The position numbers were made by a program, and so were the translations under genes. From contig NC_092680.1 in assembly GCF_964355755.1 (NCBI RefSeq), positions 21,987,001 to 22,051,000 of the forward strand: a stretch of DNA of 64,000 bases. The letters are read 5' to 3'. The notes beneath the pieces are model-generated. The model saw nothing but the letters and a program-made list of their open reading frames with translations, was not told where the DNA came from and searched no databases. The DNA comes from Antedon mediterranea. Taxonomy: Eukaryota > Echinodermata > Crinoidea > Comatulida > Antedonidae. Shown here in pieces: positions 1,743 through 41,600 of the stretch. Each line of letters opens with the position of its first letter. Within the stretch, counting starts at the first letter, position 1.

Positions 1743-4700
1743 GTGAAGGCAATTTTCCAATAATATTGTAATGAATTCTTTTCCCTGAATTTTAAACATC
1801 AAATGATTTATTCAGAAATAAATTAAATTTAAAAGAAAAAAATTTGGATTTAACAAGTTTTCATGACTTCCATAGTACGTACATGTCCTAATGTCATTTT
1901 AGTGTTTGTTTTATACATTTTCTTCTAGGCTTTGCGTAGAGTAGGTGGCACTCCAAGTGTATCCACTCACATAGATTGCATGGCATCAAACCGTGTAATT
2001 AAGTTACCTGGACTTATTGATGTTCATGTTCATCTAAGAGAGCCTGGCTTTACACACAAGGAAGACTTTGCATCTGGTACCGCAGCTGCTCTAGCTGGTG
2101 GTATTACGCTTGTTGGCGTCATGCCAAACACAAGCCCTACGATTACTGATCAACCTTCATTCCTACTAGCTCAAAAGGTGAGTCATAGGATTAGACAACT
2201 ATTTTAAACTCTGATCGATGTTCATTGTGTATCTCTTTGGCATGTATCTGTAGTGCTATTGTGTATCTCTTTGGCATGTATCTGTAGTGCTATTGTGTAT
2301 CTCTTTGGCATGTATCTGTAGTGCTATTGGATATCTCTTTGGCATGTATCTGTAGTGCTATTGTGTATCTCTTTGGCATGTATCTGTAGTGCTATTGTGT
2401 ATCTCTTTGGCATGTATCTGTAGTGCTATTGTGTATCTCTTTGGCATGTATCTGTAGTGCTATTGGATATCTCTTTGGCATGTATCTGTAGTGCTATTGT
2501 GTATCTCTTTGGCATGTATCTGTAGTGCTATTGTGTATCTCTTTGGCATGTATCTGTAGTGCTATTGGATATCTCTTTGGCATGTATCTGTAGTGCTATT
2601 GTGTATCTCTTTGGCATGTATCTGTAGTGCTATTGTGTATCTCTTTGGCATGTATCTGTAGTGCTATTGGATATCTCTTTGGCATGTATCTGTAGTGCTA
2701 TTGTGTATCTCTTTGGCATGTATCTGTAGTGCTATTGTGTATCTCTTTGGTATGTATCTGTAGTGCTATTGTGTATCTCTTTGGCATGTATCTGTAGTGC
2801 TATTGTGTATCTCTTTGGCATGTATCTGTAGTGCTATTGGATATCTCTTTGGCATGTATCTGTAGTGCTATTGTGTATCTCTTTGGCATGTATCTGTAGT
2901 GCTATTGTGTATCTCTTTGGCATGTATCTGTAGTGCTATTGGATATCTCTTTGGCATGTATCTGTAGTGCTATTGTGTATCTCTTTGGCATGTATCTGTA
3001 GTGCTATTGGATATCTCTTTGACATGTGTCTGTAGTGCTATTGTGTATCTCTTTGGCATGTATCTGTAGTGCTATTGTGTATCTCTTTGGCATGTATCTG
3101 TAGTGCTATTGTGTATCTCTTTGGCATGTATCTGTAGTGCTATTGTGTATCTCTTTGGCATGTATCTGTAGTGCTATTGTGTATCTCTTTGGCATGTATC
3201 TGTAGTGCTATTGTGTATCTCTTTGGCATGTATCTGTAGTGCTATTGTGTATCTCTTTGGCATGTATCTGTAGTGCTATTGTGTATCTCTTTGGCATGTA
3301 TCTGTAGTGCTATTGTGTATCTCTTTGGCATGTATCTGTAGTGCTATTGTGTATCTCTTTGGCATATATCTGTAGTGCTATTGTGCATCTCTTTGGCATG
3401 TATCTGTAGTGCTATTGTGTATCTCTTTGGCATGTATCTGTAGTGCTATTGTGTATCTCTTTGGCATGTATCTGTAGTGCTATTGTGTATCTCTTTGGCA
3501 TGTATCTGTAGTGCTATTGTGTATCTCTTTGGCATGTATCTGTAGTGCTATTGTGTATCTCTTTGGCATGTATCTGTAGTGCTATTGGATATCTCTTTGG
3601 CATGTATCTGTAGTGATATTGTGTATCTCTTTGGCATGTATCTGTAGTGCTATTGGATATCTCTTTGGCATGTATCTGTAGTGCTATTGGATATCTCTTT
3701 GGCATGTATCTGTAGTGCTATTGTGTATCTCTTTGGCATGTATCTGTAGTGCTATTGTGTATCTCTTTGGTATGTATCTGTAGTGCTATTGTGTATCTCT
3801 TTGGCATGTATCTGTAGTGCTATTGTGCATCTCTTTGGCATGTATCTGTAGTGCTATTGTGTATCTCTTTGGCATGTATCTGTAGTGCTATTGTGTATCT
3901 CTTTGGCATATATCTGTAGTGCTATTGTGTATCTCTTTGGCATGTATCTGTAGTGCTATTGGATATCTTCATTTTTCATTTGCTATACTATATCCTGCAC
4001 AATTCAGGAAAGTTATTTATCTATTTTACATTTCAGCTTGCTCGAATTGGTGCTCGTTGTGATTACGCCCTCTACGTGGGTGCTGGACCAAATAATTGGG
4101 ATGAACTTCAAAAGTTTGCAATGTCCAGTTGTGCACTCAAAATGTATCTGAATCAGACATTCTCAACTTTGATGTTGTCTGACCTCACTATCTGGAAAAA
4201 GGTGTGCAAACATGTCTTCATAATATAATAAAAGAGCATTTATAATGCGCCATATCCAATCAATGATTGCTCATAGGCGCAGTACATACATGTATAAAAC
4301 CATTATAAGAATTAAAACAACTTTAGAAATTGAAACTAGATAGTACAGTAATTAAAACTTAAAGCCCCATTCCCTACGTTTTTTAGATCTAATTTAAGAT
4401 CACAAACTATATTTAATGTAAAAATAATACTATATGGTCCTATTGCGATAACTTTTTTCGTCTTTAAACGGTTAAAAATGTGAAAAATAAATCGATTCTA
4501 ATAATTATAGCGGCCCGCTATAAATCCCAAAATGCATTGCGCGCGGATTGATATTTTTGTTTTTCACCTGTAATTCGCCCACTTTTCGATCGATCGTGAA
4601 GCCAAAACAAATGGAAGACTCCTAACTTTTCAGCGAAAATACCGGGTTTTCCCCAATTTGTATCAACGGAGTCTGGCAAAAATAGAAAGACAATTAATGC

Positions 4701-7700
4701 AGCAACTATACAACGTCAGGCTAGGTATATAGCTAGCGTACGATGTTCGTACGTTATCGATGTTTACCAGCTAGGCCTACAAAACTAAGCCTAGCTAGGC
4801 TAGGCCTAAGACCGTCCACGAGAGGTCGATCGCCGCGAGCTACTTAGGTAGTGCATTGTTTCTCACTTTTTATCATAATTTACCATAAAACGTACATTTA
4901 AGACAAGGAATGACATGGTTTAATGTTTTTAAAGTGATATATATGTATTATTTTCCAAAAAACGTCCAAAATTGCAGGGAAGGGGTCTTTAATTAAAAAT
5001 AGATTTTCTAATAACAATAGATAGAGCTATCATAACTTATGAGTGAACTTTATTTTAAAGCCAGCTTAAATGACAAATCAGATTTACTGTAATGATATAA
5101 TTAGTTTTAATCTGAGCTGGAGGTATGTACGTAGTGCAATAGTATCACAAAATGAAAATACATTTTATATCGATGAGACTAATTGTTAAATGGGTTTCTT
5201 TATCAGCATTTTGAGAATTGGCCACGGAACATGCCAATTTGTGCGCACGCCGAAGGGAAGACCACTGCTGCTATCTTATTCATGGCCAAGATGTTTGATC
5301 GATCCATTCACATTTGCCATGTTGCTAGGAAAGAAGAGGTTAGTGAAATAATTTGTATGTTATTTCATGATTAATTCAAAATGGCTGCTTTCAGGCCTGG
5401 TTTATAATTAAAAACTTGCTTAGTCCTAAAAACTATCACATTTAACTCATTGTGTTTTAAATATCTTGCCTACAAACATTAAACAATGATGATTTCAGAT
5501 TGAGATGGTCAGGTTGGCAAAAGAATCTGGCATGCAAGTGACCTGTGAGGTCGCCCCTCATCACCTGTTCCTAACAAATGAAGACCTAGATGTCATAGGT
5601 CATGGTAGAGGTGAAGTTCGACCAGTGTTGTGTTCTGTAGAAGATCAACAAACATTATGGGATAACTTGAAGATTATTGATTGCTTTGCTACTGATCATG
5701 GTGAGTGGCTCTCAAATTTGTTTGGCCAATTGGTATTGTTCATGCATTGTCAGCCTTGGCTTCCCTCATTAATCAAAGTTTAATAAAAAATTAATACAAA
5801 AATAATGTTCACAACAATCTCTCCTATACATTCTTGCAGTTAAATAACTGAAAAATAAAGTTAAAAAAATTATTTAAATCGACATGGAATTATTGTGATT
5901 TAATCGGCAGCTCCCCATACAGTAGAAGAAAAGGACTCAAGCAAACCACCGCCAGGATATCCTGGACTAGAGACTATGCTTCCACTGCTGCTGACTGCTG
6001 TAGATGAGGGCAGGCTAACACTTGAGGTTAGTTTGCTATATTCTCCAATTCCAAACAGGACACAAATCTGTTGTCTAGGTGTAACAGCAGATAATTTTCT
6101 TTTAAATATTCACAAAGTTTTTTTTTTTAGTTTCTCTTTACATTTCAATGTTGCTTTGTTTTATTAATTTAGGATATAATCCAGCGACTGTACACGAATC
6201 CTCGTCGTATCTTTGGATTTCCAGAACAGAAAGAGACATACATTGAAGTTGACCTGGACCAAGAGTGGACCATTCCAGATCACATGACCTACACAAAAAG
6301 CAAATGGACACCATTTGCTGGACGGCGTGTCAAAGGAATGGTGCGCCGCGTTGTGTTGCGCGGTGAAGTAGCTTTTGTCGATGGAAGGGTGAGGATAAAT
6401 GAATACACATTTGTTTGTTTTATTGATTGACATGATAATATAATACGGCGTTCATTACCTGAAATAACAAAATTAGGATAAAATTGTGTGTGGATGGAGG
6501 CCAAAATAAGTTTGTTAAACAAACCTTAAGTCATGGCCACCGGTATAACACATAACATTTTGTAGGCATACTGTAAAATATTTAGTGTGGACCATTTTAA
6601 GATGGCTTATGAACATTCTTTATTGTAAATAACTGTTTGACGTTGTTGCTACTATACCACAATTGTAAAAAGGTTTTTTATAGAAAAAATAATAGGAAAA
6701 AAAAAGACTAGATGAATAAAGAATTATGAATTATGTTGTAGGTATTGGTTCCAACTGGTTTTGGGAAAGATGTACGAAGTGGGCAAGATGTGTTCCCATC
6801 AACTCAACCACTTACAGTGCAAGTACCTGGACCATCGCCACTACCTTTACCAGGTTCAGTACCATCATCGGCGCCCTCATCGCCTCGTAAATCTGAAAGA
6901 TTCACCTTGCCACCAAGAGTACATAGGGTTTCAGAATCTGGAGGTACTAATTGTAATCACCTGTTCTGGCATAGTTCCAGGCGCTGGCATCAAGTGAAGG
7001 TCAATGTTTTTTTTCGCGCGGTTACACACACTAGATTGGTGCATGGCTGTGTGGAGTGTTGTGAAAACAAAACATTGACATTCAGTTTGCCGGCATCAGG
7101 TATGAAAGATCCTTGGGACCTTCAATTAAACCTAGGACACTGGAAACCTTGGGACCTTCAATTAAACCTAGGACACTGGAAACCTTGGGACCTTCAATTA
7201 AACCTAGGACACTGGAAACCTTGGGACCTTCAATTAAACCTAGGACATTGGAAACCTTGGGACCTTCAATTAAACCTAGGACACTGGAAACCTTGGGACC
7301 TTCAATTAAACCTAGGACACTGGAAACCTTGGGACCTTCAATTAAACCTAGGACACTGGAAACCTTGGGACCTTCAATTAAACCTAGGACACTGGAAACC
7401 TTGGGACCTTCAATTAAACCTAGGACACTGGAAACCTTGAGACCTTCAATTAAACCTAGGACACTGGAAACCTTGGGACCTTCAATTAAACCTAGGACAC
7501 TGGAAACCTTGGGACCTTCAATTAAACCTAGGACACTGGAAACCTTGGGACCTTCAATTAAACCTAGGACACTGGAAACCTTGGGACCTTCAATTAAACC
7601 TAGGACACTGGAAACCTTGGGACCTTCAATTAAACCTAGGACACTGGAAACCTTGGGACCTTCAATTAAACCTAGGACACTGGAAACCTTGGGACCTTCA

Positions 7701-10700
7701 ATTAAACCCAGGACACTGGAAACCTTGAGACCTTTAATTAAACCTAGGACACTGGAAACCTTGGGACCTTCAATTAAACCTAGGACACTGGAAACCTTGG
7801 GTCCTTCAATTAAACCCAGGACACTGGAAACCTTGGGACCTTCAATTAAACCTAGGACACTGGAAACCTTGGGACCTTTAATTAAACCTAGGACACTGGA
7901 AACCTTGAGACCTTCAATTAAACCTAGGACACTGGAAACCTTGGGTCCTTCAATTAAACCCAGGACACTGGAAACCTTGGGACCTTCAATTAAACCTAGG
8001 ACACTGGAAACCTTGGGACCTTCAATTAAACCCAGGACACTGGAAACCTTGAGACCTTTAATTAAACCTAGGACACTGGAAACCTTGGGACCTTCAATTA
8101 AACCTAGGACACTGGAAACCTTGGGTCCTTCAATTAAACCCAGGACACTGGAAACCTTGGGACCTTCAATTAAACCTAGGACACTGGAAACCTTGGGACC
8201 TTTAATTAAACCTAGGACACTGGAAACCTTGAGACCTTCAATTAAACCTAGGACACTGGAAACCTTGGGTCCTTCAATTAAACCCAGGACACTGGAAACC
8301 TTGGGACCTTCAATTAAACCTAGGACACTGGAAACCTTGAGACCTTCAATTAAACCTAGGACACTGGAAAGCAAGAAGATTGATCTTCTTTGATATGAGG
8401 CAGACTTTAGTTATATTTAAACATTTTATATTTGTATATAATATTAACATCATTTTTTTAGATATGTCTGGATTACTGTCCCCTCCTCCTGGACCAAGCA
8501 GTGGCGGACGTGGCACATTTGTTACCCCAACGTCGACTGGCTCTACCCCTCAAGGGGGCGGGCACTATGCTTTAGTACCAGCAATGTTGATGCCAAGTGA
8601 ACTTAAGAACAGTCTTATTAACAAACATATTCTTAGTGCTGCACAACTTACTAAGGACCAGGTAGGTTACAATAAAAACAAGAAATTTAAAAACAAATAA
8701 TGAGATAAGATATATAAGATATGTATGATATGTAAATTAATTTAATTTAACCTAATTATTAAAGAGATAATACTGATAATTTGGTAAGAAATAATTAGTT
8801 TTGATCTATTTAATTTAAAACAATCTGATTAATTTATCATTTCTATAAACAAAACTTTCAAATTATTTTTGTTCCACCAAAAGCATGACCATTTTTTTAC
8901 CAATCGGTAACTGATAATTGCCAGCTACTTTTAAATTGACCAATGGGTAACTGATAATTGCCACCCATATTTAAATTGACCAGTGGGTGACTGATAATTG
9001 CCAGTCACTTAAGTCTTGCAAATGTATTAATCCTGTATGGTAGAATTAATGTCCAGAATTATAGAATGGAAGTATTTTTATTTGTTTGTTAAAATAAATG
9101 TAATTTTTTACAGCTTCACCATATTTTTAATGTTGCCCACAACATGAGGTTGATGGTACAACGAGATAGACCACTGGATTACATCTTGAAGGTGAGATAA
9201 AAACGCTGTATATCATGTACATGCTATTATAGAATGAATCTCTTTCAGGTTAAAATAATAGCATTTATATAACATCTAAATAAATTCCTGTCATTTTATT
9301 TGATGATTGTGTGTGACATGGCATGCAATACGAAATAGTACCCCTTTTTTCATTTTTGTTCATGTACATTCATTATTATTTGTATATTATGGTTTTCTTC
9401 AGGGTAAAGTGATGGCATGTATGTTCTATGAAGTTAGTACTCGTACGTCTTGTTCGTTCCAAGCTGCAATGCAGCGACTTGGTGGAAATGCTATCAACCT
9501 TAATGAAAGTTCATCTTCACATAAGAAAGGTGAATCACTGGCAGGTTAGTTCATTTTACTTTTTTTTTTATAAACTGATTGATCTGTAATAAATCTGTAG
9601 TATACAGTAATATTTTAATTACCAAATAAAATTTGAATTAATTTCTTTTATAGATACCACCCAGGTTATGGGTGGCTACTGTGACGTGATAGTTATACGA
9701 CACCCAGAACCAAACGCTGTAAAGATTGCAGCTCAAAATTGTAGGAAACCGGTAATCAATGCTGGTGATGGGGTTGGAGAACACCCTACACAGGCACTAC
9801 TTGATGTATTCATCATTAGGGAGGAGATTGGTACAGTAAATGGATTGACTGTAAGTCATTATTACAAGTGTGGGAGTAGTGGCTAAAAATAGAAGCTATT
9901 CAATTACCAACTGGAAAGTAAAATTGTCATGATAAATTTACAGGATACTTTTCTTAGCGTGTTGTTCTATTGTGGAACTCTCTTTCTGCAGATGTTGTGC
10001 TTGTTCAGTCTAACTTTTAAATACTTTACATTTCTGAACAAAAAACAATTGTATTTAAAGTCATTTTAGATACACTTAAAAATGAAATTACCTTACCTTT
10101 TCGGGCCAAGTGTCCCATAAGGCTACGAGATGCTCTCTCCAGTCAGTTTCTAGCTTTAACTTTAGCTTCATTCCATGATCTCCAGCCTAATCTATCTCTT
10201 TCCTTCTCCACTGTGCGCCTCCAGGTTGTTTTGGGTCGACCCACCCAACGTTTTCCTTATAAAAATAATCATGCTCCATTCAGAATTTGTTTTATTTTCT
10301 TTTTATGTAATGTTTTACTTGATTGTTCATAGATTACTATGGTAGGAGATCTGAAACATGGGCGCACTGTACATTCACTTGCTCGGTTGCTGACGCTTTA
10401 CCGCGTTAAATTACGTTATGTTTCGCCAAAGAACTTGAAGATGCCCGAAAAAGTTGTAGAGTATGTACAAGACAAGGGAATAAATCAGGTAAATTATATT
10501 GTACATTTTAAAAACTAGATATAGATATTAATAGGTAGCATTGAACACTTTTAGTGCAACTTTATTCTGAAAAGGATAACTTTAAAAATGTTTATGAAAA
10601 GGCTGTTCAAAATGGAAAGATAATCAAACATATAGTTAATAGAAAATTGAATATTTATATTATACCAATTTCACAGAATTAAAAATCAATCATGAAAATA

Positions 10701-12283
10701 GACAAATCAAAATAGTACAATTATGTATGATATTTTGACCCATTAGTTTATCAATCAATTAACATTTATTATTTTCTATCAATGGTAAACTATACAGTAG
10801 AATAACATGGTAAACTATATAGTAGAATAACATGGTAATATATAATGAAACAATAGAACAATATCATTAATAGAGGATCGTGTAGTAGCCTCTCAACAGC
10901 TCATTTTGTTGCAATACTATTAATAGAGGATCGTGTAGTAGCCTCCCGACAGCTCATTTTGTTGCAATACTATTAATAGAGGATCGTGTAGTAGCCTCTC
11001 AACAGCTCATTTTGTTGCAATACTATTAATAGAGGATCGTGTAGTAGCCTCTCAACAGCTCATTTTGTTGCAATACTATTAATAGAGGATCGTGTAGTAG
11101 CCTCTCAACAGCTCATTTTGTTGCAATACTATTAATAGAGGATCGTGTAGTAGCCTCCCGACAGCTCATTTTGTTGCAATACTATTAATAGAGGATCGTG
11201 TAGTAGCCTCTCAACAGCTCATTTTGTTGCAATACTATTAATAGAGGATCGTGTAGTAGCCTCTCAACAGCTCATTTTGTTGCAATACTATTAATAGAGG
11301 ATCGTGTAGTAGCCTCTCAACAGCTCATTTTGTTGCAATACTATTAATAGAGGATCGTGTAGTAGCCTCCCGACAGCTCATTTTGTTGCAATATCATTAA
11401 TAGAGGATCGTGTAGTAGCCTCCCGACAGCTCATTTTGTTGCAATATCATTAATAGAGGATCGTGTAGTAGCCTCCCGACAGCTCATTTTTTTGCAATAT
11501 CATTAATAGAGGATCGTGTAGTAGCTTCTCGACAGCTCATTTTGTTGCAATACTATTAATAGAGGATCATGTAGTAGCCTCTGGACAGCTCATTTTGTTG
11601 CAATACTATTCGATTGATATTGATATTTCAGGAAGAGTTCAGTTCCCTAGAAGCTGCATTGCCAGATACAGACGTTCTTTACTTGACTCGCATTCAGAGA
11701 GAAAGGTTTGCGTCTGTAGAAGAATATGAAAAGGTAAACTTTTTGTTGTTCTTGTATGGAAGCCATATCATGTTAGGCTCCTCCATGTTAATGTCATTAA
11801 AATGAAATAAAAGGAAACAATCAGAAAGTGGTTGAAGAATTGTTATATACCAATAAATAATCAGAATTATGAATTTACATGAAATACTTTTAAATATTGC
11901 TGTATATTCTGATTATAATATTTTGTCTTGGAATTAATAAAGTTTGATTTGTTTGTTTCTTTGCAGTCTGTAGGTCAGTTTGTGTTGACCCCTAATATAA
12001 TGACCCGAGCAAAAGAAAAGATGGTGGTACTCCATCCTTTACCAAGACTTAATGAAATTAGGTAAGACTAGATGGTAGATTGTCATTCTATTGCATGTTG
12101 ATTAGAAGTTCTGTCCAGTAGTTTATAATGTGATTTGTAATCCTATTTCAATTATAAATTATTTGTTTTTTTTTTTACAGTCCTGCTGTTGACCGAGATC
12201 CAAGAGCTGCTTATTTCCGCCAAGCTGAGTGTGGCATGTATGTCAGAATGGCTCTATTGGCACTGGTCCTGGGAAAGTGCTAG
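142..12283 (+). CDS. CAD: CAD trifunctional pyrimidine synthesis enzyme, 3' part (CPSase end, DHOase, ATCase)
   Basis: This is the C-terminal 1152 residues of the cytosolic multienzyme that carries out the first three steps of UMP synthesis. The N-terminal glutaminase and the start of the synthetase lie upstream of the window. Exons: 142-543, 650-817, 932-1114, 1205-1309, 1497-1742, 1929-2177, 4037-4201, 5207-5338, 5499-5700, 5911-6026, 6173-6388, 6742-6943, 8462-8661, 9114-9191, 9403-9544, 9654-9850, 10333-10488, 11632-11733, 11967-12061, 12181-12283 (stop TAG). All junctions are GT-AG, phases agree, and the sum is 3459 nt. Residue-level agreement with animal CAD runs throughout: [44 protein letters not shown]. 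The linker RVHRVSES matches the S6-kinase site region of vertebrate CAD, and SRRASSF matches the PKA site region, so growth-factor control may be conserved (known for the family, inferred here). The first listed exon opens with a good acceptor, so the gene continues to the left. Confidence 0.97.
2226..3966. repeat. 34-bp minisatellite, about 51 copies, in a CAD intron
   Basis: A head-to-tail 34-bp unit (core CTTTGGCATGTATCTGTAG) fills most of the intron between exons 1929-2177 and 4037-4201. Copies are almost identical. A GTGT/GGAT variant near the unit start recurs every two to four units in the left part of the array, suggesting higher-order amplification. The array starts about 50 bp after the splice donor and stops about 70 bp before the acceptor. 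Open frames on either strand here are by-products of the repeat. Confidence 0.97.
4363..4988. mobile_element. TTAA-flanked MITE, copy 1 (626 bp)
   Basis: This 626-bp element lies in the CAD intron at 4202-5206. It is flanked by TTAA on both sides (4359-4362 and 4989-4992), the target-site duplication used by piggyBac-type elements. Its ends are imperfect inverted repeats (AGCCCCATTCCCT against AGACCCCTTCCCT). A second copy of exactly the same length, differing at about a dozen positions, is at 13718-14343. It has no coding capacity, so a non-autonomous DNA transposon is the best reading. Confidence 0.88.
6742..8661 (+). other. CAD: CAD: DHOase-ATCase linker exons
   Basis: Two exons (6742-6943 and 8462-8661) encode the proline/serine-rich flexible linker between the dihydroorotase and transcarbamoylase domains. 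The first ends with [11 protein letters not shown], which matches the basophilic-kinase (S6K) site of vertebrate CAD. The second contains [12 protein letters not shown] and then [16 protein letters not shown], where the transcarbamoylase begins. The split codon (G plus AT) across the intron keeps the frame. The intron between them is largely a 36-bp minisatellite. Linkers vary in sequence between animals, so conservation is weak here except at the kinase site. Confidence 0.88.
7109..8369. repeat. 36-bp minisatellite, 35 copies, in a CAD intron
   Basis: A tandem array of a 36-bp unit (core CTTCAATTAAACCTAGGACA) lies in the intron between the two linker exons. Because 36 is a multiple of three and the unit lacks stops in several frames, the array reads open for over 1.2 kb on both strands. 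Flanking exons splice in frame across it and neither strand shows a start or family match, so it is taken as intronic. A C/T and G/A variant set recurs in blocks, showing local amplification. Confidence 0.95.
8880..9008. repeat. 40-bp repeat, three diverged copies, in a CAD intron
   Basis: Three imperfect 40-bp units share ACTGATAATTGCCA and lie in the intron between exons 8462-8661 and 9114-9191. They are more diverged than the larger arrays in this window. The rest of the 8662-9113 intron shows nothing else. Confidence 0.7.
10094..10263 (-). pseudogene. Non-LTR retrotransposon 3' fragment
   Basis: On the minus strand this stretch reads as the C-terminal tail common to many LINE ORF2 proteins, with [15 protein letters not shown] followed by [15 protein letters not shown] and a stop. 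It sits in the CAD intron at 9851-10332. Only the tail is present, so it is a 5'-truncated dead copy. Confidence 0.65.
10861..11610. repeat. 53-bp minisatellite, about 14 copies, in a CAD intron
   Basis: A tandem 53-bp unit (core GAGGATCGTGTAGTAGCCTC) fills the intron 10489-11631 up to 21 bp before the splice acceptor. Variants TCTCAAC and TCCCGAC alternate in blocks. The acceptor itself is outside the array. The earlier part of this intron (10490-10860) is plain AT-rich sequence with a short duplicated stretch near 10790-10840. Confidence 0.95.
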
Positions 12284-12766
12284 CCACAAATCTTTACATA
12301 TACTGGTCAATCAAGCTGAGTGTGGCATGTATGTCAGAATGGCTCTATTGGCACTGGTCCTGGGAAAGTGCTAGCCACAAATCTTTACATATACTGGTCA
12401 ATCAAGCTGAGTGTGGCATGTATGTCAGAATGGCTCTATTGGCACTGGTCCTGGGAAAGTGCTAGCCACAAATCTTTACATATACTGGTCAATCAAGCTG
12501 AGTGTGGCATGTATGTCAGAATGGCTCTATTGGCACTGGTCCTGGGAAAGTGCTAGCCACAAATCTTTACATATACTGGTCAATCAAGCTGAGTGTGGCA
12601 TGTATGTCAGAATGGCTCTATTGGCACTGGTCCTGGGAAAGTGCTAGCCACAAATCTTTACATATACTGGTCAATCAAGCTGAGTGTGGCATGTATGTCA
12701 GAATGGCTCTATTGGCACTGGTCCTGGGAAAGTGCTAGCCAGAAATCTTTACATATACTGGTCAAT
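12221..12766 (+). repeat. 91-bp tandem duplication of the CAD terminus, six copies
   Basis: Six head-to-tail 91-bp units start at 12221, 12312, 12403, 12494, 12585 and 12676. The first contains the last 20 CAD codons and the TAG stop plus 28 bp of 3' UTR. The other five repeat this material in the 3' UTR, each with its own copy of the stop. They are essentially identical, with one change seen in the last copy. Because 91 is not a multiple of three the copies fall in different frames, and translation ends in the first copy. Confidence 0.96.
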
Positions 12767-17623: not shown

Positions 17624-20600
17624 ATGTCAGTTGTGAAACGGACATCACAAAATGTTGAAGATGATCCTACGAGAAAAAGACGAAAAACTGGAGAGGACGA
17701 AAACAGTGATCCAGACCTAGACTCGGATGCAGAGGAAGAGGTGTTAATTCAATCATAACTAAATTAAATCTAAATTGATATTGTTTTTTGTCTGATTCAA
17801 AGTTCTTTCAATTTTAGTGGTATTTGTTAGGGAAATGCAAGAAGTATTTAAAATTAAAACATATTATATTCAGTCAAGGGTAAAATGGCAAAAGGTACAT
17901 GACCACAGTGCTGATTTTGCCATTTTCCCCCTGTATTAGTTAAAATCATTGACAAAATTAATTGAATTGAACCAGGAGTGGGAAGATGTGAATTAACCAC
18001 TCACCATTGGCTCACTACGAGTGCTTAAATTTCAGGAAAAACAATGATAAAATATTAAGTTGATTTCATTCACTATCTAATATTGTAGCCTAGTAATTGT
18101 AACCCCTTGGTAAAAAAAATGAAGTGGAGAAATGAAGCAGCATGGCATGACAATTGTAAGAGGTTAGAATGAATATCAATTTATTAATTAAAATGAGTAA
18201 TATACTTTCTTTCAGGGTAATTCAGTTGGAATTATTGAGAGAATAGTACTGAAGAACTTTATGTGTCATGGTCATTTAGACTTTTCTTTTGGGCCAAATG
18301 TCAACTTTGTTGTTGGTAGAAATGGAAGTAAGTGATATAAAATTATGTTTAGTAATGTTGGTGTCACAGTATTTTATCATTAAATTACAACTAAAAATGT
18401 ACTGTCGTTTGCTGTGTGTCTAAACAGAACAGCAAAACACAATGTCAATTAGTTTACCTCAACAAATACAAAAAAGGGTACTTGGAATGAAATAGTACAT
18501 TTTTTTAAATAGTGAAAGATATTTCTAAAAACGCTGTATAATGATTATATATACAAATCAGTCAACATAGAACTTTAAAATATTAGGGAAAAAACTATTT
18601 TATGTCATTGCAACTACTTGTAATTAACTATTGTTAATATTAATTATGATGTTTATGAGTTTAATACTGAATATATTATTTTGTAATTAAATTGTATTAT
18701 ATAGGTGGCAAGAGTGCTGTTCTGACTGCTTTGGTAGTAGGTTTAGGAGGAAAGGCTAATATCACTGGAAGAGGATCATCTATGAAAAACTTTGTTAAAA
18801 ATCAAAAAAGGTAATTCTAATATATAAATATATTTATAAGTGGTATAAAATAGTTTAGTTTTTAAATGCAGTTATATTACATTTTTAGAGGTATATTTTA
18901 ATTTCAGTTATGCAGAAATTACAATCAAAATTAGCAATCAGGGAACGGATGCATTCAAGCATGACTTGTACGGCAACTCGGTGACCGTCATTCGTCGAAT
19001 TAATCAAGATGGTCAGTCGTTTTATAAACTAAAAAGTGAGAAAGGTGCAGTTGTATCGACAAAGAAGGAAGAGCTTACCCACCTCCTTGACCAATTCAAC
19101 ATACAAGTGGACAATCCAGTCTCTATTCTAAATCAGGACACAAGCCGTAACTTTCTTCAATCAAAGTTACCAACTGACCGCTATAAGGTATAAATGTTAA
19201 CTCGATGTAGTCTGTGCTTTTAGCTTGGTATTCAATGTTAAATGATTATTATGTCTGTGCTTTCAGCTTGGTATTCAATGTTAACTCGATGTAGTCTGTG
19301 CTTTCAGCTTGGTATTCAATGTTAAATGATTATTATAGCATGGCTGCCTTTAAGTTATCCCAGCTGATTGCCATAAGATAGTTAACATTAATGTAGTCTT
19401 AATGTCTTCCCACAAATACCGAATGGCTGCCTTTAAGTTATCCTACCTGATTGCCATTAAGATAGTTAACATTAATGTATAGTCTTAATGTCTTCCCACA
19501 AATACCGAATGGCTGCCTTTAAGTTATCCTACCTGATTGCCATTAAGATAGCTAACATTAATGTAGTCTTAATGTCTTCCCACAAATACCGAATGGCTGC
19601 CTTTAAGTTATCCTACCTGATTGCCATTAAGATAGCTAACATTAATGTAGTCTTAATGTCTTCCCACAAATACCGATTGTTATTTATATTAATATTTATA
19701 TTTCAGTTTTTTCTGAAGGCAACACAACTTCAGCAAATGACAACTGATTACAACACTATTCAGGAGCAAAAGGATATCACGGAAGTAACATTGGCAGATA
19801 GAAAGAAAGTAAGTATCTATGTATTTAACATGTAAACAGGAAGTAAGTATCTATGTATTTAACATGTAAACAGGAAGTAAGTATCTATGTATTTAACATG
19901 TAAACAGGAAGTAAGTATCTATGTATTTAACATGTAAACAGGAAGTAAGTATCTATGTATTTAACATGTAAACAGGAAGTAAGTATCTATGTATTTAACA
20001 TGTAAACAGGAAGTAAGTATCTATGTATTTAACATGTAAACAGGAAGTAAGTATCTATGTATTTAACATGTAAACAGGAAGTAAGTATCTATGTATTTAA
20101 CATGTAAACAGGAAGTAAGTATCTATGTATTTAACATGTAAACAGGAAGTAAGTATCTATGTATTTAACATGTAAACAGGAAGTAAGTATCTATGTATTT
20201 AACATGTAAACAGGAAGTAAGTATCTATGTATTTAACATGTAAACAGGAAGTAAGTATCTATGTATTTAACATGTAAACAGGAAGTAAGTATCTATGTAC
20301 TTAACATGTAATCAGGAAGTAAGTATCTATGTACTTAACATGTAAACAGGAAGTAAGTATCTATGTATTTAACATGTAAACAGGAAGTAAGTATCTATGT
20401 ATTTAACATGTAAACAGGAAGTAAGTATCTATGTATTTAACATGTAAACAGGAAGTAAGTATCTATGTATTTAACATGTAAACAGAAAGTAATTAAAATA
20501 TAACTTGAATTGCTGTGGAAATATTTTCTTGGTTAAATATCTAATTTTATCCTAATTGTTAGAGTCTGGAAGAACTTGATAAAGACGTTCAAGAAAAGAA

Positions 20601-23600: not shown

Positions 23601-26600
23601 ATGTCTTATTTTTGTTTCCCATTTTATTATTGTTCAATAGGAAATAAATGAACTAGTTTCAACTGAAGAGCCAGCAAATGTGGATGTGAGTACTTTAGAA
23701 GGAGAAGTTGAAAAGTATTTGTTGGAAATAGGAGCCTTGCAAGAAGAGTTTGAAATAAAGGAAAAAGAATTCAAGATCAGGCATGCTAGACTAGAAGAAC
23801 TGCAACAAAACTGGAAACAGAAGGCTGATGAATATGGCGGCATTGTGAATGACATTGAAGCAAAACAGGTAAGATGTTAATCCTTAATCATTTTATTAGT
23901 ATAATAGACCTACATAGAAATTGTGTACGGAGTCACAATGCATACAAATGAATATGACTGCAAATAAAAATGAAAAACGCATCTATTTGCAGGATGACTT
24001 AAAGAAGAAGTTTACAGAACTTGAGACTGCTAAGCAACACTCTAAGCACTACAAAGACAAGAAAACTGAGCACTTACAAGTACTCATTGATCTAAACCAG
24101 AAAGTGGAGGCTAAAGAAAAGGAGATTGAGGTATGTATGTACAGATGAGATCATGCTTTTATCTATCGTCATTGTTTTCAGTTGAATTTTAAAGCATAGT
24201 TGGCGACAAAGAAAAGAAATTCATTCAGACCTTCACAGTTTATTTTATTGGTTGTCTTTTTTTCAGATTGCAAGAGGAAAAGCAAGTCAGATATCGGAAG
24301 AGAGAATTCCTACTCAGAGGAAGGCTCAAAACATTGATTCTGAAATACACCAGATTACTAGAAGGATTGAAAAGGAACGTCAAAGGTACAATTCCATGTT
24401 GATAAACCTTTAAAATATTTTAGCATATTCATCTTTGAAACAGCACGATGCTATCTACTGCTTCGAATGTGATGGGTTCTCAACTGCCTCTTTCCATAGT
24501 TCTGGTGGTAGAACACCACTATCTTCTTGGTTTACACAAAACTTATTACAGGACATATTTTGAGATGAGAATTGTTTGTCTTTTTAGTCGTGGTGACCCA
24601 GAACAAATAACAAGAGAGTATTACGATGCAAAGAATAAATTCTTTGCAATTGTTACTCAAATGAAGCAATGTAAAGCATTTGTAACGGTAAGTTAAAAAA
24701 CTACAATGCCCACACTTTAATTTCTAATAATTATGTTTAAATATTGTATAATACTGCACTAATCTGTATAAATTTCACTGTAAGTAGGAAGCCTTTTTAA
24801 TAACAAAACACACATTATTACTGCACTAAAGTGTACTGCATATAATTACAATTTGACTGTTGATGGATTTGTATGTGTGTTATGAATGGTGATGAAAGGA
24901 ACATTTTGGACAAACTAAACTTGGTGTTATTCTGTATAAATACTATGAAAGTATTGCTTTTAATGTAATTCTTTGTTGTTTTTTTTCCTGTCCAAAAGCA
25001 AATTTAGCTTATTTATATTATTTATCCCTTTTCTTATCTTTCAACTTGTTTCTTCTGAAAGCATCATCGCAACAAAACAGACATTTAGCAAATCAGAATT
25101 TTTGATTTTTTGTTTTTTCTTTTCTTTAATAATTGTTTAAATATTTAATTAATCACTGTAAACCTGTATAGGATATTTGTATACTAATCTAATAATTAGC
25201 AATTTCCATAATTAGAAAACTTTAATATTTAAGCTATGTAGAACCGTTAACCAACCATTTGTTTATCATCAGAGAATCCAAAAAAATTTCCTTCACTAAT
25301 ATTACATCTTTGAGTAAAACTTGTTTTTGTTAGCCCTCTCTATATAAATATGTATTAAAAATATGCACAAAGATTGGGTAAAAATTCTAGGTGCTACACA
25401 CGATTTATTATTTTAGATGATTAAAATATTCAATTAATCAATACAAAATTACTATATTACTATTATTTTTAGAGTTTTATTTTGTATTTTATGATTTTAG
25501 AAACTTAAAGAATTGTTAAAAACGAGAAGACAAACATACCTTGAATTTAGACGATATGTTGCTATGCGAGCTAAGTGTTATTTTGCGATGATGCTATCAC
25601 AAAGAGGCTACAATGGAAAGATGTCGTTTGACCACAAAGATCGCCAACTGCATATCGTTGTGAGTCCTCCTCATATGGAAAGAGAGAAAATTGCACCTGC
25701 CTTAAAAAAAAAACTATTTACAATAAAAAAAAACATTTCGCAGTCCTCGAGAACCTAAAGTTATATTGTAAAAAGGCAGGTGAAATGTTGTTCTCTTTCA
25801 ATGTTGTTAAATATATTATAGAAAATAGTTTTTGTTTTTATCCAAGGCACTTGATGCCTGCCTAGAGGACAGAAGACGTACATATAAACAATTTCGTAAG
25901 ACAATTGTTATTAGTGTACAATTAAGTTTTATAACCATGATGTACGAAAGAGGATACGAAGGAAAAGTGACCTTCAATCATTCAGAGGGAAGCATTGATT
26001 TGAAGGTGAGAACATCAAAGTGTATATTTTATATATTATGATATATCCAGGTATCGCTATTCACTAAAACAAAATATAGTTGTAAAAAATAACACTTTTT
26101 TTTTATAACAGTTTGAAATTTAAAAATAAATTTTGTGCAAAAAAAGGTTGCAAAAAAAAAAAAACAAAAAAAATCTCAATTTCAACTAATTACTTTTTGG
26201 TAAGCATGGAACAAATAGGTGTAGTGGGTAAGAATTTTTCCACCAAGTCACTAAGAATTATTTAGAAATATGCAATTACTTTTCCCAAAATTAATTTGTT
26301 TTCTTGTTTTTCAGGTACATCCACATCAAGGTCAAGGGTCAGCACAAAAGGATATGAGAGGATTGTCAGGCGGTGAAAGATCTTTTTCAACAGTTTGCTT
26401 CATCATGGCATTATGGGAATCAATGGAATCGCCATTTAGAGCCTTGGATGAGTTTGATGTTTTCATGGTAAGATTGTGTTAATGTATGTTTTGTACTGTG
26501 ATGTTTTCATGGTAAGATTGTGTTAATGTATGTTTTGTACTGTGATGTTTTCATGGTAAGATTGTGTTAATGTATGTTTTGTACTGTGATGTTTTCATGG

Positions 26601-29600
26601 TGAGATTGTGTTAATGTATGTTTTGTACTGTGATGTTTTCATGGTAAGATTGTGTTAATGTATGTTCTGTACTGTGATGTTTTCATGGTAAGATTGTGTT
26701 AATGTATGTATTGTACTGTGATGTTTTCATGGTAAGATTGTGTTAATGTATGTTTTGTACTGTGATGTTTTCATGGTAAGATTGTGTTAATGTTTGTTTT
26801 GTACTGTGATGTTTTCATGGTAAGATTGTGTTAATGTATGTTTTGTACTGTGATGTTTTCATGGTAAGATTGTGTTAATGTATGTTTTGTACTGTGATGT
26901 TTTCATGGTGAGATTGTGTTAATGTATGTTTTGTACTGTGATGTTTTCATGGTAAGATTGTGTTAATGTATGTTCTGTACTGTGATGTTTTCATGGTAAG
27001 ATTGTGTTAATGTATGTTCTGTACTGTGATGTTTTCATGGTAAGATTGTGTTAATGTATGTTCTGTACTGTGATGTTTTCATGGTAAGATTGTGTTAATG
27101 TATGTTCTGTACTGTGATGTTTTCATGGTAAGATTGTGTTAATGTATGTTTTGTACTGTGATGTTTTCATGGTAAGATTGTGTTAATGTATGTTTTGTAC
27201 TGTGATGTTTTCATGGTAAGATTGTGTTAAATGTATGTTTTGTACTGTGATGTTTTCATTGTAAGATTGTGTTAATGTATGTTTTGTACTGTGATGTTTT
27301 CATTGTAAGATTGTGTTAATGTATGTTTTGTACTGTGATGTTTTCATGGTGAGATTGTGTTAATGTATGTTCTGTACTGTGATGTTTTCATGGTGAGATT
27401 GTGTTAATGTATGTTTTGTACTGTGATGTTTTCATGGTGAGATTGTGTTAATGTATGTTTTGTACTGTGATGTTTTCATGGTGAGATTGTGTTAATGTAT
27501 GTTTTGTACTGTGATGTTTTCATGGTAAGATTGTGTTAATGTATGTTTTGTACTGTGATGTTTTCATGGTAAGATTGTGTTAATGTATGTTTTGTACTGT
27601 GATGTTTTCATGGTAAGATTGTGTTAATGTATGTTTTGTACTGTGATGTTTTCATGGTAAGATTGTGTTAATGTATGTTTTGTACTGTGATGTTTTCATG
27701 GTAAGATTGTGTTAATGTATGTTTTGTACTGTGATGTTTTCATGGTAAGATTGTGTTAATGTATGTTTTGTACTGTGATGTTTTCATGGTAAGATTGTGT
27801 TAATGTATGTTCTGTAATGTGATGTTTTCATGGTAAGATTGTGTTAATGTATGTTTTGTACTGTGATGTTTTCATGGTAAGATTGTGTTAATGTATGTTT
27901 TGTACTGTGATGTTTTCATGGTAAGATTGTGTTAATGTATGTTTTGTACTGTGATGTTTTCATGGTAAGATTGTGTTAATGTATGTTCTGTACTGTGATG
28001 TTTTCATGGTAAGATTGTGTTAATGTATGTTTTGTACTGTGATGTTTTCATGGTAAGATTGTGTTAATGTATGTTTTGTACTGTGATGTTTTCATGGTAA
28101 GATTGTGTTAATGTATGTTTTGTACTGTGATGTTTTCATGGTAAGATTGTGTTAATGTATGTTTTGTACTGTGATGTTTTCATGGTAAGATTGTGTTAAT
28201 GTATGTTTTGTACTGTGATGTTTTCATGGTAAGATTGTGTTAATGTATGTTTTGTACTGTGATGTTTTCATGGTAAGATTGTGTTAATGTATGTTCTGTA
28301 CTGTGATGTTTTCATGGTAAGATTGTGTTAATGTATGTTTTGTACTGTGATGTTTTCATGGTAAGATTGTGTTAATGTATGTTTTGTACTGTGATGTTTT
28401 CATGGTAAGATTGTGTTAATGTATGTTCTGTACTCCTTCAATATGTTGATAAATGCAAGAATGTTGTACATTTTTGTGTTTTTCTTCCTACCAGGACATG
28501 GTGAATCGCAAGATAAGCATGGACCTGATGTTGAAAGTTGCCAAAGAGCAAAAAATGCGCCAGTTTATTTTCCTCACTCCACTTGATATGAGGTAATGAG
28601 GACACCTAACGTTTTGCATCTTAATTTTGTCATCCATGTTTTAGTGTTATAGGATCAATACATATTTAATGAGAATCTTTCTATAACTTATCGTGGATAA
28701 TTTCGCTAATTGCCAATTTTATTGCATGCAACCAAATAAATTATGTTGTTGGTAGTGGGTTGAGCAAGAATCAATTAGGTAATACAGTCAACTCTCCCAA
28801 TACCGGACACCCTTGGGCGGGCATATATTTTCCGGTTTTTCGAAATTCCGGTTTCCTGAAAACATATTTTTGAAGTTATCACGTTGTCACTGAAAATGCT
28901 TGAATCACCGGTCCGAATGCTGCCCGGTACGCGGTCTAGCGTAGGGGAGGCCTAGGCTATGATTGTGTCAAGCTACTGTAGTTTGAATTAAATAAATACT
29001 GATAGGCCTAGGCCTACTTTATTAATATTAAGCTAATTTAATTTACCTTTTTTAAAAGTTACATTATGTACCCATAAAACATGTTACAGTAGTAAATTAT
29101 TGTTTCTCAATGTGTTTTTAACGGCAAATAGGCCTAGGCCTACGTACGTACGGTGAACATAATTTCGGTCTGTTTATTGTTTTTCGTTCGCGAGCTAGCT
29201 CTAGCAGCAGCAGCATGCAGCATGTTTGATAAAAAAAATAGGAGAGCGTAGATTTGATTGATGCGCATGTGCAGCGGTGTCATAATCAAATAAAAACGCC
29301 CACACCTAGACCACATGTTTTTTAAGCTCCTTTATTTTGACGTAATTTGATAGCAATGATGAAAATTGATTAGGTAAACGAGCCAAGCAATAATGACACA
29401 ATAATTAATTGGTAACATTTCAAAGTTTATTAACACTAAATTTAAAATTAACAAATTATGGCAGACATTTACATTTTATCAGATTTTAAACCAATCATCT
29501 AAAGACGCCTGTTTGGAGTTTCTGCGTTTAATTAAAATTTCTTTCTCCATAATTTCCGTTAATTCCTGAAGTTGTTGATCAATAATTTCAAAATGATGTG

Positions 29601-38685: not shown

Positions 38686-41600
38686 CTGCAAATTAACATT
38701 ATCAAATATGTTTCTTTTCAACAAAAAATAATAGAAATTTAATTATTATTATCAGTCGGTGCTTATTATTAATTTTGTATTTGTTAATGGCAATTATTTG
38801 AATATAAGAAAGAAATACTAGATAGTGTTTTCAATCCTTTTTCTTTTCTTAAGATTAAAAAAATGTAACTTTAGGCCTACATGCAACTAGACCTGGATTC
38901 GATTTCTGTTCGCTTATAGTTGCTTCGGAAACGATTGGCTGAGCAGGAGGTACATTCCAAGGTGCCAGAGTCTAGGTAGAAAATATAGGTAGTACAATTG
39001 GGTTTATCATTTATTGATTATTTAAACCGACTTATTAACCTGTCATGTGTTGACCTGTAACTGACCTTTTACATACTGTATCTTTATTTCTTATTATTAT
39101 TAATTTGTTAAAGCTCACGCTTGCAACGTTTGTCACCAGCATTGCTAATGTACGCGGTGTTGGAATATGATTGTATAATGTAACATCATTGTGATTCACT
39201 TACAATTTCTGGTTGTTTAGTTGTTGCAGGCAATATTGTTGGCAATACAACAATAGGAGCTCTAAAGTCTGCACAAGTTTCCCTCCTTAAACTTTCAGAC
39301 GTGACGTCAATTGCAGATGTACTCGTGTAAAACGTTTTGATTGGCTGATTGCCGTTATAATTGACACCTACAAAGTATGACGTGTATTCATTCAAGTAAT
39401 ATAATTCTTTTAGTTAGTTGGGGTGGGGAAGGGGTCAAGAGAAAGATCCAATTGCCTTTTAGTGAAATTATTATTATTGTAATTTCTCTTTGCATCTAAA
39501 ATGTCCATCAACGCAATTTAATACTCGACGACAATATCTTACCAGCTAAGCAACCGTCAAATGTATGTAAACCATCTAGTCCAAAACCAGTTAGATTACG
39601 TTCAAGTCCGCCGACGACGAACACGGAAGGAAAATCAAATTGAAAGTCACTAATTCCATCACTTGATAGGTCGTTATAGGTTGACTCTTTATTATCTACC
39701 TGAAAGCAAAACGACGTAACCAAGCATTATCGTAATTGATGGCTATTCCACCCTCATTTACATCGACAATTTCCATTTGGCAGTAATTATCAAATAATAA
39801 TTTCATTTTGAAGATTTCTCAAGTTGATGAGATGATCATGTCACGTTTAGTGAAGGTGGAATAACTCAACCGGCAATAATTATAACGTTTGCTTCAATTA
39901 TTTGATTTGATTATTATGTTGATTGCAATTAAGTGGCACGTTTTCTTTCTTTTTTAAGCTTTTGTGGTTAATTTCAAATAAATCACCTAATTTAGAAATG
40001 AACACAAGTTTATTTACCGTCATCATTAATCGGTTTCCATAGCGACGTAACGCAATTAAATGGCGATAGCCATCATTGTACGAACCAACAGCTTCTATTA
40101 TATCTATAAATTGGAATTACGAGCAATAATGAGAAAGGTTAATCGATGATATAAATCGAATTTATTTCAGATTAAATTAATAATAATAATAATGATGATG
40201 TAATAATAATATTATTACTATTGTATCTCCTAAAAAATTGTAGCTTTTATCTTAAATTATTTCTCTAAAACGTTTCCATGACAGAACGATCTAATACTTA
40301 CTTTCTCTGTATCCTAAGTTTATCTTGACCTTAATATGTCCATAGTCCGTGATGTACACAATGACGTATTCCTGGATAAGTGTGTATCTTGGACTACGTG
40401 CATAGGCCAAAACTCCTGACATACTCGTACTAAATGATATTAATAAAACATCAGTCTGTAGAGTAGCTAGGTCAGATGATGGAGTTAGTTTTGCTATGAT
40501 GCCACTTGAATTATGGAAATGGGCTCCGACATCTGTCAAAAGATTGACATTAGTTATAGATGTATTGTGCTATTCCTTAGCAATGAAACACGTGTATTAT
40601 TTTTCCTAACATTATTTGATAATAACGTTTCAAATGTGTTCATATTATTAGTTTATTTATTTTTTTTTATTTATTCGACTTCTCACTAACTCAGTTAGTG
40701 AAGGATCTGGACCAACAGGTGGTAAACACCTCTAAAATGGTCCAGTCCCAATTTGCACAGTGGCTGTGTGTGACAGTGGCTGTGTTTGTGTGGACTAGTA
40801 CACCGGGGTAACTCCCTATGCCTTACTTTTATGTCTACGCTAAACGTTTAAGTTTTGTTTACCTTCAGCGCACTGATTTCCTGTATAAGATGTCTGTGTA
40901 CAGTTACAATAAAAGTGATTCCATGTTTCAATACAAACCCCTCCATTAAAGCATGGTATAGGCGAACAGTGGTTCGTACATTTGTCAACAACACCTTTAG
41001 AGTAAACAGAGTATTTCACACAAGATAGTAAACAATATGTTGGAACTAAACTATAAAATCTGATAAGTGCATAACTAAAATGGAAAAAAAAGATTGATTA
41101 TAGGAGTGAGAACAAAATAAAATCGGTCTAAATCTAGTCTGTTTAGCGTTTTATAAAAAAAATATCAGTTATCATTTTCTTTACTGGATAAAGATCTTTA
41201 TTTAACGGCTATATAATAGATAGCCTTATTATATTAAAGAACTGCTCACCTTTTATACCACTTCCTTGCAATCTTATTGGTTGTCTGTTTATAACGAGCC
41301 CTCGAATACATCCCTTGAAATCAGCAATGTCGTTAGGCATCCCACCAATGTGAATGTTGACAAATTCGTACGGTGAAGAAGAAGAAGGTTGGGCTTTTAA
41401 AGTAATAATAACAACACAAACATAACACTTATTTCGCCTTGAAATATATATAGTATGAGTTCAAATCACATTTAAAATAGGCCTAATGAAAAAGTTCTTT
41501 TAAGTACATAATTTTAAACCAAACATTTGTTGTAAGTAAATAGACCTGCATACCAATACCCTTCATAAACGGATCGCTATAGAATCGATCAAGAAGTCGT

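Follow-up and report, generated by a model that had tools for sequence, protein, structure and literature searches.

The stretch of DNA analysed here (the window) comprises 64,000 nucleotides of contig NC_092680.1 of Antedon mediterranea (positions 21,987,001 to 22,051,000), and its plus strand carries the exons of a gene of the SMC family. In order, these exons encode the Walker A motif (GRNGSGKSA), the coiled coil, the signature motif (LSGGERS) and the Walker B motif (ALDEFDVFM). Among SMC proteins of solved structure, the C-terminal part of the product matches human SMC6 best, at 1.7e-40 compared with 7.4e-4 for the best SMC5. With Walker A, signature motif, Walker B and an SMC6-type neck all present, the gene is, as judged from these motifs, an SMC6 orthologue. 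SMC5/6 is an essential genome-maintenance machine. The genome, searched as a 354-Mb assembly of 18 contigs, apparently contains one SMC6 gene and one NSE4 gene, the latter found as a single locus with two neighbouring exons.

The region of interest is bounded by two constitutive exons on the plus strand. The upstream one (24589-24687) encodes part of the coiled coil (RGDPEQIT...KAFVT), has an alignment to human SMC6 (9lwi_A) that starts at position 886, and ends in the donor ACG/GTAAGT, where the slash marks the exon end. The downstream one (26315-26467) encodes the LSGGERS signature and Walker B (ALDEFDVFM). Between them lie, on the same strand, exon A (25501-25659), the canonical SMC6 neck and head-entry exon, and exon B (25847-26005), a diverged alternative to it. 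Each encodes 53 aa, and they are separated by a 187-nt intron (25660-25846), in the same frame and with GT-AG splice sites. A sequence-only reading of this DNA had described both exons as 159 nt long, in phase 0-0, flanked by usable splice sites, and joining in frame to positions 24687 and 26315; a base-by-base recheck gave exactly the same coordinates, lengths and phases, with AG and GT at the flanks, and the upstream and downstream exons read through with either A or B between them. The 17 identities reported over the gapless 53-residue alignment were likewise reproduced on recomputation. After permutation of the residues of exon B, identities averaged 3.3 and reached at most 12 in 100,000 trials.

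Spliced to the two constitutive exons, A and B both align without gaps to positions 886-1021 of human SMC6 chain 9lwi_A (E-values of 1.7e-40 with A and 1.6e-35 with B). The exons themselves correspond to chain positions 918-970, which comprise the returning neck helix and, in the C-terminal head lobe, the first beta hairpin. The earlier placement of the pair at the entry to the C-terminal ATPase head stands, except that LSGGERS itself sits in the next exon, 16 residues on. Exon A had been taken for ordinary SMC6, and it is the closer of the two to the human protein, with 26/53 identities versus 16/53 for B. At three sites (E7, Q15, L26) the human residue is present in B but not in A; that the two copies match human SMC6 at separate sites fits an old duplication followed by change in both copies. 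A search of the 354-Mb genome for homologues of exon B returned exon A alone and no second SMC6 gene. With A and B as the only matches in that genome, derivation of B from another SMC6 gene was rejected. The pair probably arose by an old tandem duplication within the single SMC6 gene.

Exons A and B would each supply the last part of the coiled-coil helix on its return, which is the NSE4-binding neck, and with it the beta hairpin that comes first in the C-terminal ATPase lobe. Mutation of SMC6 neck residues in S. pombe showed that L965, L972 and R975 are specifically required for SMC6-Nse4 binding, with L968 needed for stability (PMC7297730). The spacing L-x3-L-x2-R is common to the necks of S. 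pombe and S. cerevisiae, and mapping by this spacing would place S. pombe L968, L972 and R975 at exon positions 2, 6 and 9. These positions are L, L and R in both A and B, and L, M and R in human. Because the putative contact positions L2, L6 and R9 are kept in B, the exon B variant probably still binds the kleisin NSE4. The neck helix encoded by A and B is the same one that forms the interface of SMC6 with the NSE4 kleisin (PMC7297730, PMC9191643), and its putative contact positions are kept in both exons; however, no alternative version of the neck is described in the papers found, whereas two are encoded here. A second NSE4 kleisin to partner the second neck was considered and rejected, one NSE4 locus having been found.

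As had been noticed before, the RGYxGKxxFxH core is kept in exon B. The changes lie elsewhere; for example, the basic pair R23/K25 of A is replaced by S/Q, and there are replacements beyond the core. The LYF/CYF region, cited earlier as one of the altered sites, is CYF in exon A, where human SMC6 has LYF and exon B has LSF; the human L is thus kept in B. AlphaFold2 gave the same layout for the two peptides, namely a helix at residues 2-34 and strands at 41-44 and 49-52 (pLDDT 89 for A and 88 for B); the input was a two-sequence A/B alignment in which each model is helped by the other sequence, so the layouts are compatible rather than independent. The original idea of a changed head-coil joint calls for qualification, since the putative kleisin contacts and the predicted secondary structure are the same in B. 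With these in common, exon B resembles a modulating variant more than a new architecture. The product with exon A would be canonical SMC6, and that with exon B a variant in which the structural and kleisin-binding core is kept and much of the surface is altered. Database comparisons of the short pieces added little: Pfam gave no matches to the 53-residue peptides, which are too short, and Foldseek and VIA-align found no significant match to the 53-residue models. The Smc5/6 head chain 8wjn_B aligned with the model of B at Z 3.1 (48 residues, rmsd 2.7) and with that of A at Z 2.9 (49 residues, rmsd 2.8), tied in both cases with unrelated entries. A search of viral contigs for related sequences gave two weak matches, both confined to the coiled coil.

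The lower number of human matches in exon B (16 versus 26 of 53) could be seen as the mark of a decaying duplicate that is used never or hardly at all. However, the frame, both splice sites and the length of exon B are intact despite a nucleotide identity to A of 80/159 (approximately 50%), and its functional core is kept. When exon A was mutated without selection to the observed identity, which took ~132 substitutions with indels left out, the sequence was free of stops in 3.8% of the simulations, retained at least 17 identities in 1.0%, and did both in 0.09% (9e-4). This figure is reached before any indels are counted, and the chance of zero indels in ~130 substitutions is ~0.001 at 0.05 indels per substitution. 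Identities between A and B number 25, 35 and 20 of 53 at the three codon positions, with position 2 most conserved, a pattern suggestive of two constrained coding copies under purifying selection, and one that argues against decay. In addition, B equals A at 13 of the 26 sites where A equals human, compared with 4 of 27 elsewhere (Fisher p 0.007), and where the two exons differ, the substitutions are more conservative than under permutation (p 0.02). The donor of exon B (AAG/GTGAGA) is better than that of exon A (GTT/GTGAGT), ranking in the top 0.3% of the GT sites of the window versus the top 5% for A, with scoring weights taken from general knowledge. The GC content of exon B, 36.5%, equals that of exon A, and the flanking introns have 24-29%. 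These data support the view that exons A and B are both coding and both constrained, and make decay of exon B very unlikely. Origin of exon B from another gene, or through an assembly error, seems scarcely conceivable, since A and B lie on one contig 187 bp apart, the sole genome match to B is A, and its frame agrees with the surrounding SMC6 exons.

Mutually exclusive exons have been predicted from a length within 20 aa of each other, frame, compatible splice sites and a similarity score above 0.15 (PMC3228551). Exons A and B agree with all of these sequence criteria in length, frame and splice pattern, and their BLOSUM62 score of 97/277 corresponds to 0.35 against the threshold of 0.15. Like the tandem-duplicated mutually exclusive exons described in several surveys (PMC3228551, PMC5740500, PMC9741552), they are neighbouring homologous exons of equal length and phase that encode the same structural segment; they differ in that the gene here is SMC6, no SMC gene being mentioned in those surveys, and in that exclusivity here is predicted. 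The exclusive exons of Cacophony share 16/39 residues and keep their Ca-beta contacts (PMC9741552), and in A and B, similarly, interface residues are kept and others changed. At the level of transcripts, exclusive exons have been recognized by junction reads that support each exon, in the absence of reads that link one to the other (PMC5740500). For A and B we infer mutual exclusion from the features of the sequence. Each is a multiple of three nucleotides long, which in terms of frame permits inclusion of both or skipping of both, and exclusion would need enforcement by splicing or loss of a misfolded A+B product.

The intronic surroundings of the pair suggest how such enforcement might work. 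The sequence-only reading overlooked two features: exon A has an antisense copy, and the A-B intron has a hairpin. The antisense copy (anti-A) lies in the upstream intron at 25036-25155 on the minus strand and covers exon A from its 3' splice site to position 25622. Compared with the reverse complement of 25492-25622, 92 of 112 aligned bases are identical, with several small gaps. The lenient score of 40.5 was not reached in any of 1,000 dinucleotide shuffles (maximum 31), and among 198 control windows in the 64 kb the exon A window ranks first (z 7.1, the next being 4.4). Seven other SMC6 exonic segments showed no such antisense copy. The predicted duplex of anti-A and exon A has an energy of -67.7 kcal/mol compared with -34.7 +/- 4.7 for shuffled elements, extends over approximately 120 nt of exon A, and includes a perfect core of 13 bp. 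It is also present when the whole region is folded to minimum energy, and there it covers the 3' splice site of A. Pairing of anti-A with exon B is not notable (-35.8 versus -30.8 +/- 4.5). In a DNA search that passes over very common words, no further copy of anti-A was found in the genome, and a mobile element was rejected on the basis of this single copy. Anti-A is identical to A at 82% of aligned bases and B at 50%; being less diverged, anti-A arose after the A/B duplication, and it is thus not needed to explain the origin of that duplication.

The second feature is a hairpin at 25678-25799 (plus strand) in the A-B intron, consisting of the stems GAAAGAGAG/UUCUCUUUC (25678-25686/25791-25799) and CACCUGCCUU/AAGGCAGGUG (25694-25703/25773-25782). 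All RNA structures reported here are computed folds of single sequences. The 187-nt intron folds at -41.8 kcal/mol (z -4.8), with none of 200 shuffles as good, and its z is the second-lowest among 266 control windows, the sole window below it being 40600-40786 (z -4.95). In the fold of the whole 24688-26314 region the hairpin pairs with a probability of 0.92-1.00, and its collapse reduces the effective length of the intron from 187 nt to approximately 65 nt. No further copy of the intron was found in the genome by the DNA search, again one that skips very common words, and with a single copy the hairpin was rejected as a mobile element. Two minor pairings were also seen. One, as predicted, joins the polypyrimidine tract of exon B (25829-25839) to purine-rich sequence within the exon (25865-25875; UUUUUGUUUUU/GAGGACAGAAG), and is a possible second control on B. 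Meanwhile, a stretch of the Walker B exon (26433-26466, plus strand) is complementary to both splice sites of exon B, with 6/500 shuffles as good for the 3' site and 8/500 for the 5' site and no such signal for other splice sites; it is a weak post hoc candidate.

We infer from these folds a mechanism in which anti-A, when paired with exon A across the 3' splice site, would hide A, and the upstream exon would then join to B. The hairpin would bring the donor of A too near the branch point of B, so that A-to-B joining would be blocked sterically. Control by docking sites and selectors, as in Dscam exon 6 and 14-3-3 zeta (PMC6071210), likewise relies on long-range pre-mRNA pairing beside an exon cluster. 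However, a docking site pairs with intronic selectors of both exons and exposes an exon, whereas anti-A is a copy of one exon; its partner is that same exon, 3' splice site included, and the pairing would hide the exon. A classical docking site serving both exons was rejected because anti-A pairs with A only. Steric enforcement is used in alpha-tropomyosin and in OGDH 4a/4b, for which a donor-to-branch-point limit of approximately 50 nt has been applied (PMC7969005). There too a small intron separates the two exons, but the 187-nt A-B intron is long enough when unfolded, and only its folded form, which would approach the ~50-nt limit, would be too short. For Dscam exon 17, according to the citation of Yue et al. 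2013 in PMC7969005, steric hindrance is combined with RNA structure, similarly with a small intron.

The same observations can be read in other ways. Exons A and B may be alternative but not strictly exclusive, with transcripts that contain both, or that treat B as a cassette exon, made in meaningful amounts. The frame survives such joining since both lengths are multiples of three, and the hairpin may instead help A-to-B joining by bringing the ends of the intron together. However, an A+B product would have a second helix and beta hairpin inserted into the ATPase lobe, a duplication of a buried unit that makes an unlikely protein, and neighbouring exons that agree with the prediction criteria without being exclusive were found in only 0.35% of genes in the Drosophila survey (PMC3228551). 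We consider this reading rather improbable. A more serious alternative concerns anti-A, whose duplex with exon A could be a substrate of A-to-I editing by ADAR, with anti-A as an intronic editing-complementary sequence, or could reflect a recent passive inverted duplication without a role. The pairing over approximately 120 nt of exon A with a perfect 13-bp core, the restriction of the pairing to A, and the younger age of anti-A relative to the A/B duplication (82% versus 50%) all speak for such a reading. On the other hand, the duplex covers the 3' splice site of A exactly beside an alternative exon, and no control window is comparable. We regard editing or passive duplication as quite possible, though somewhat doubtful. 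Taken together, we think it probable that A and B serve as alternative coding exons, most likely in a mutually exclusive manner, with the choice between them set by the structure of the pre-mRNA. The fuller proposal, that SMC6 would come in two forms differing at the kleisin-binding neck and head entry, with exon A silenced by its own inverted intronic duplicate in double-stranded RNA, is put forward tentatively; mutual exclusion, the masking by anti-A, the steric block by the hairpin and a functional difference between the two proteins are all predictions.

We found no relevant paper on SMC6 with mutually exclusive exons in the open-access literature, and the term SMC is absent from the main text of two human surveys (PMC5740500, PMC9741552). 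Tandem-duplicated alternative exons are already well described; what is new is the gene and the site, and the inverted copy of one exon beside the pair. If the proposal is true, two interchangeable neck and head-entry exons would give SMC5/6 rings of two kinds, distinct at the point of coupling between ATP binding and kleisin release, and would provide a natural experiment on the importance of individual neck residues. An antisense copy of an exon would also be a simple and testable route by which an exon duplicate becomes switchable.

Minisatellites were also noticed in the gene and its neighbourhood. The intron after the Walker B exon contains an array at 26455-28434 with 45 copies of a 44-nt unit. 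The unit starts inside the exon and carries the exon end and the 5' splice site (TGATGTTTTCATG/GTAAG...), so that the donor is repeated approximately 45 times. A second SMC6 intron (19807-20492) opens with 20 copies of a 34-nt unit, which carries the GTAAGT donor of the exon and an acceptor-like end, ACAG. This genome may tend to seed minisatellite arrays at splice donors. Further long minisatellites lie upstream at 2224-3968, 7111-8370, 10859-11610 and 12221-12766, and the upstream neighbourhood includes exons resembling a CAD-type gene (dihydroorotase and aspartate transcarbamylase).
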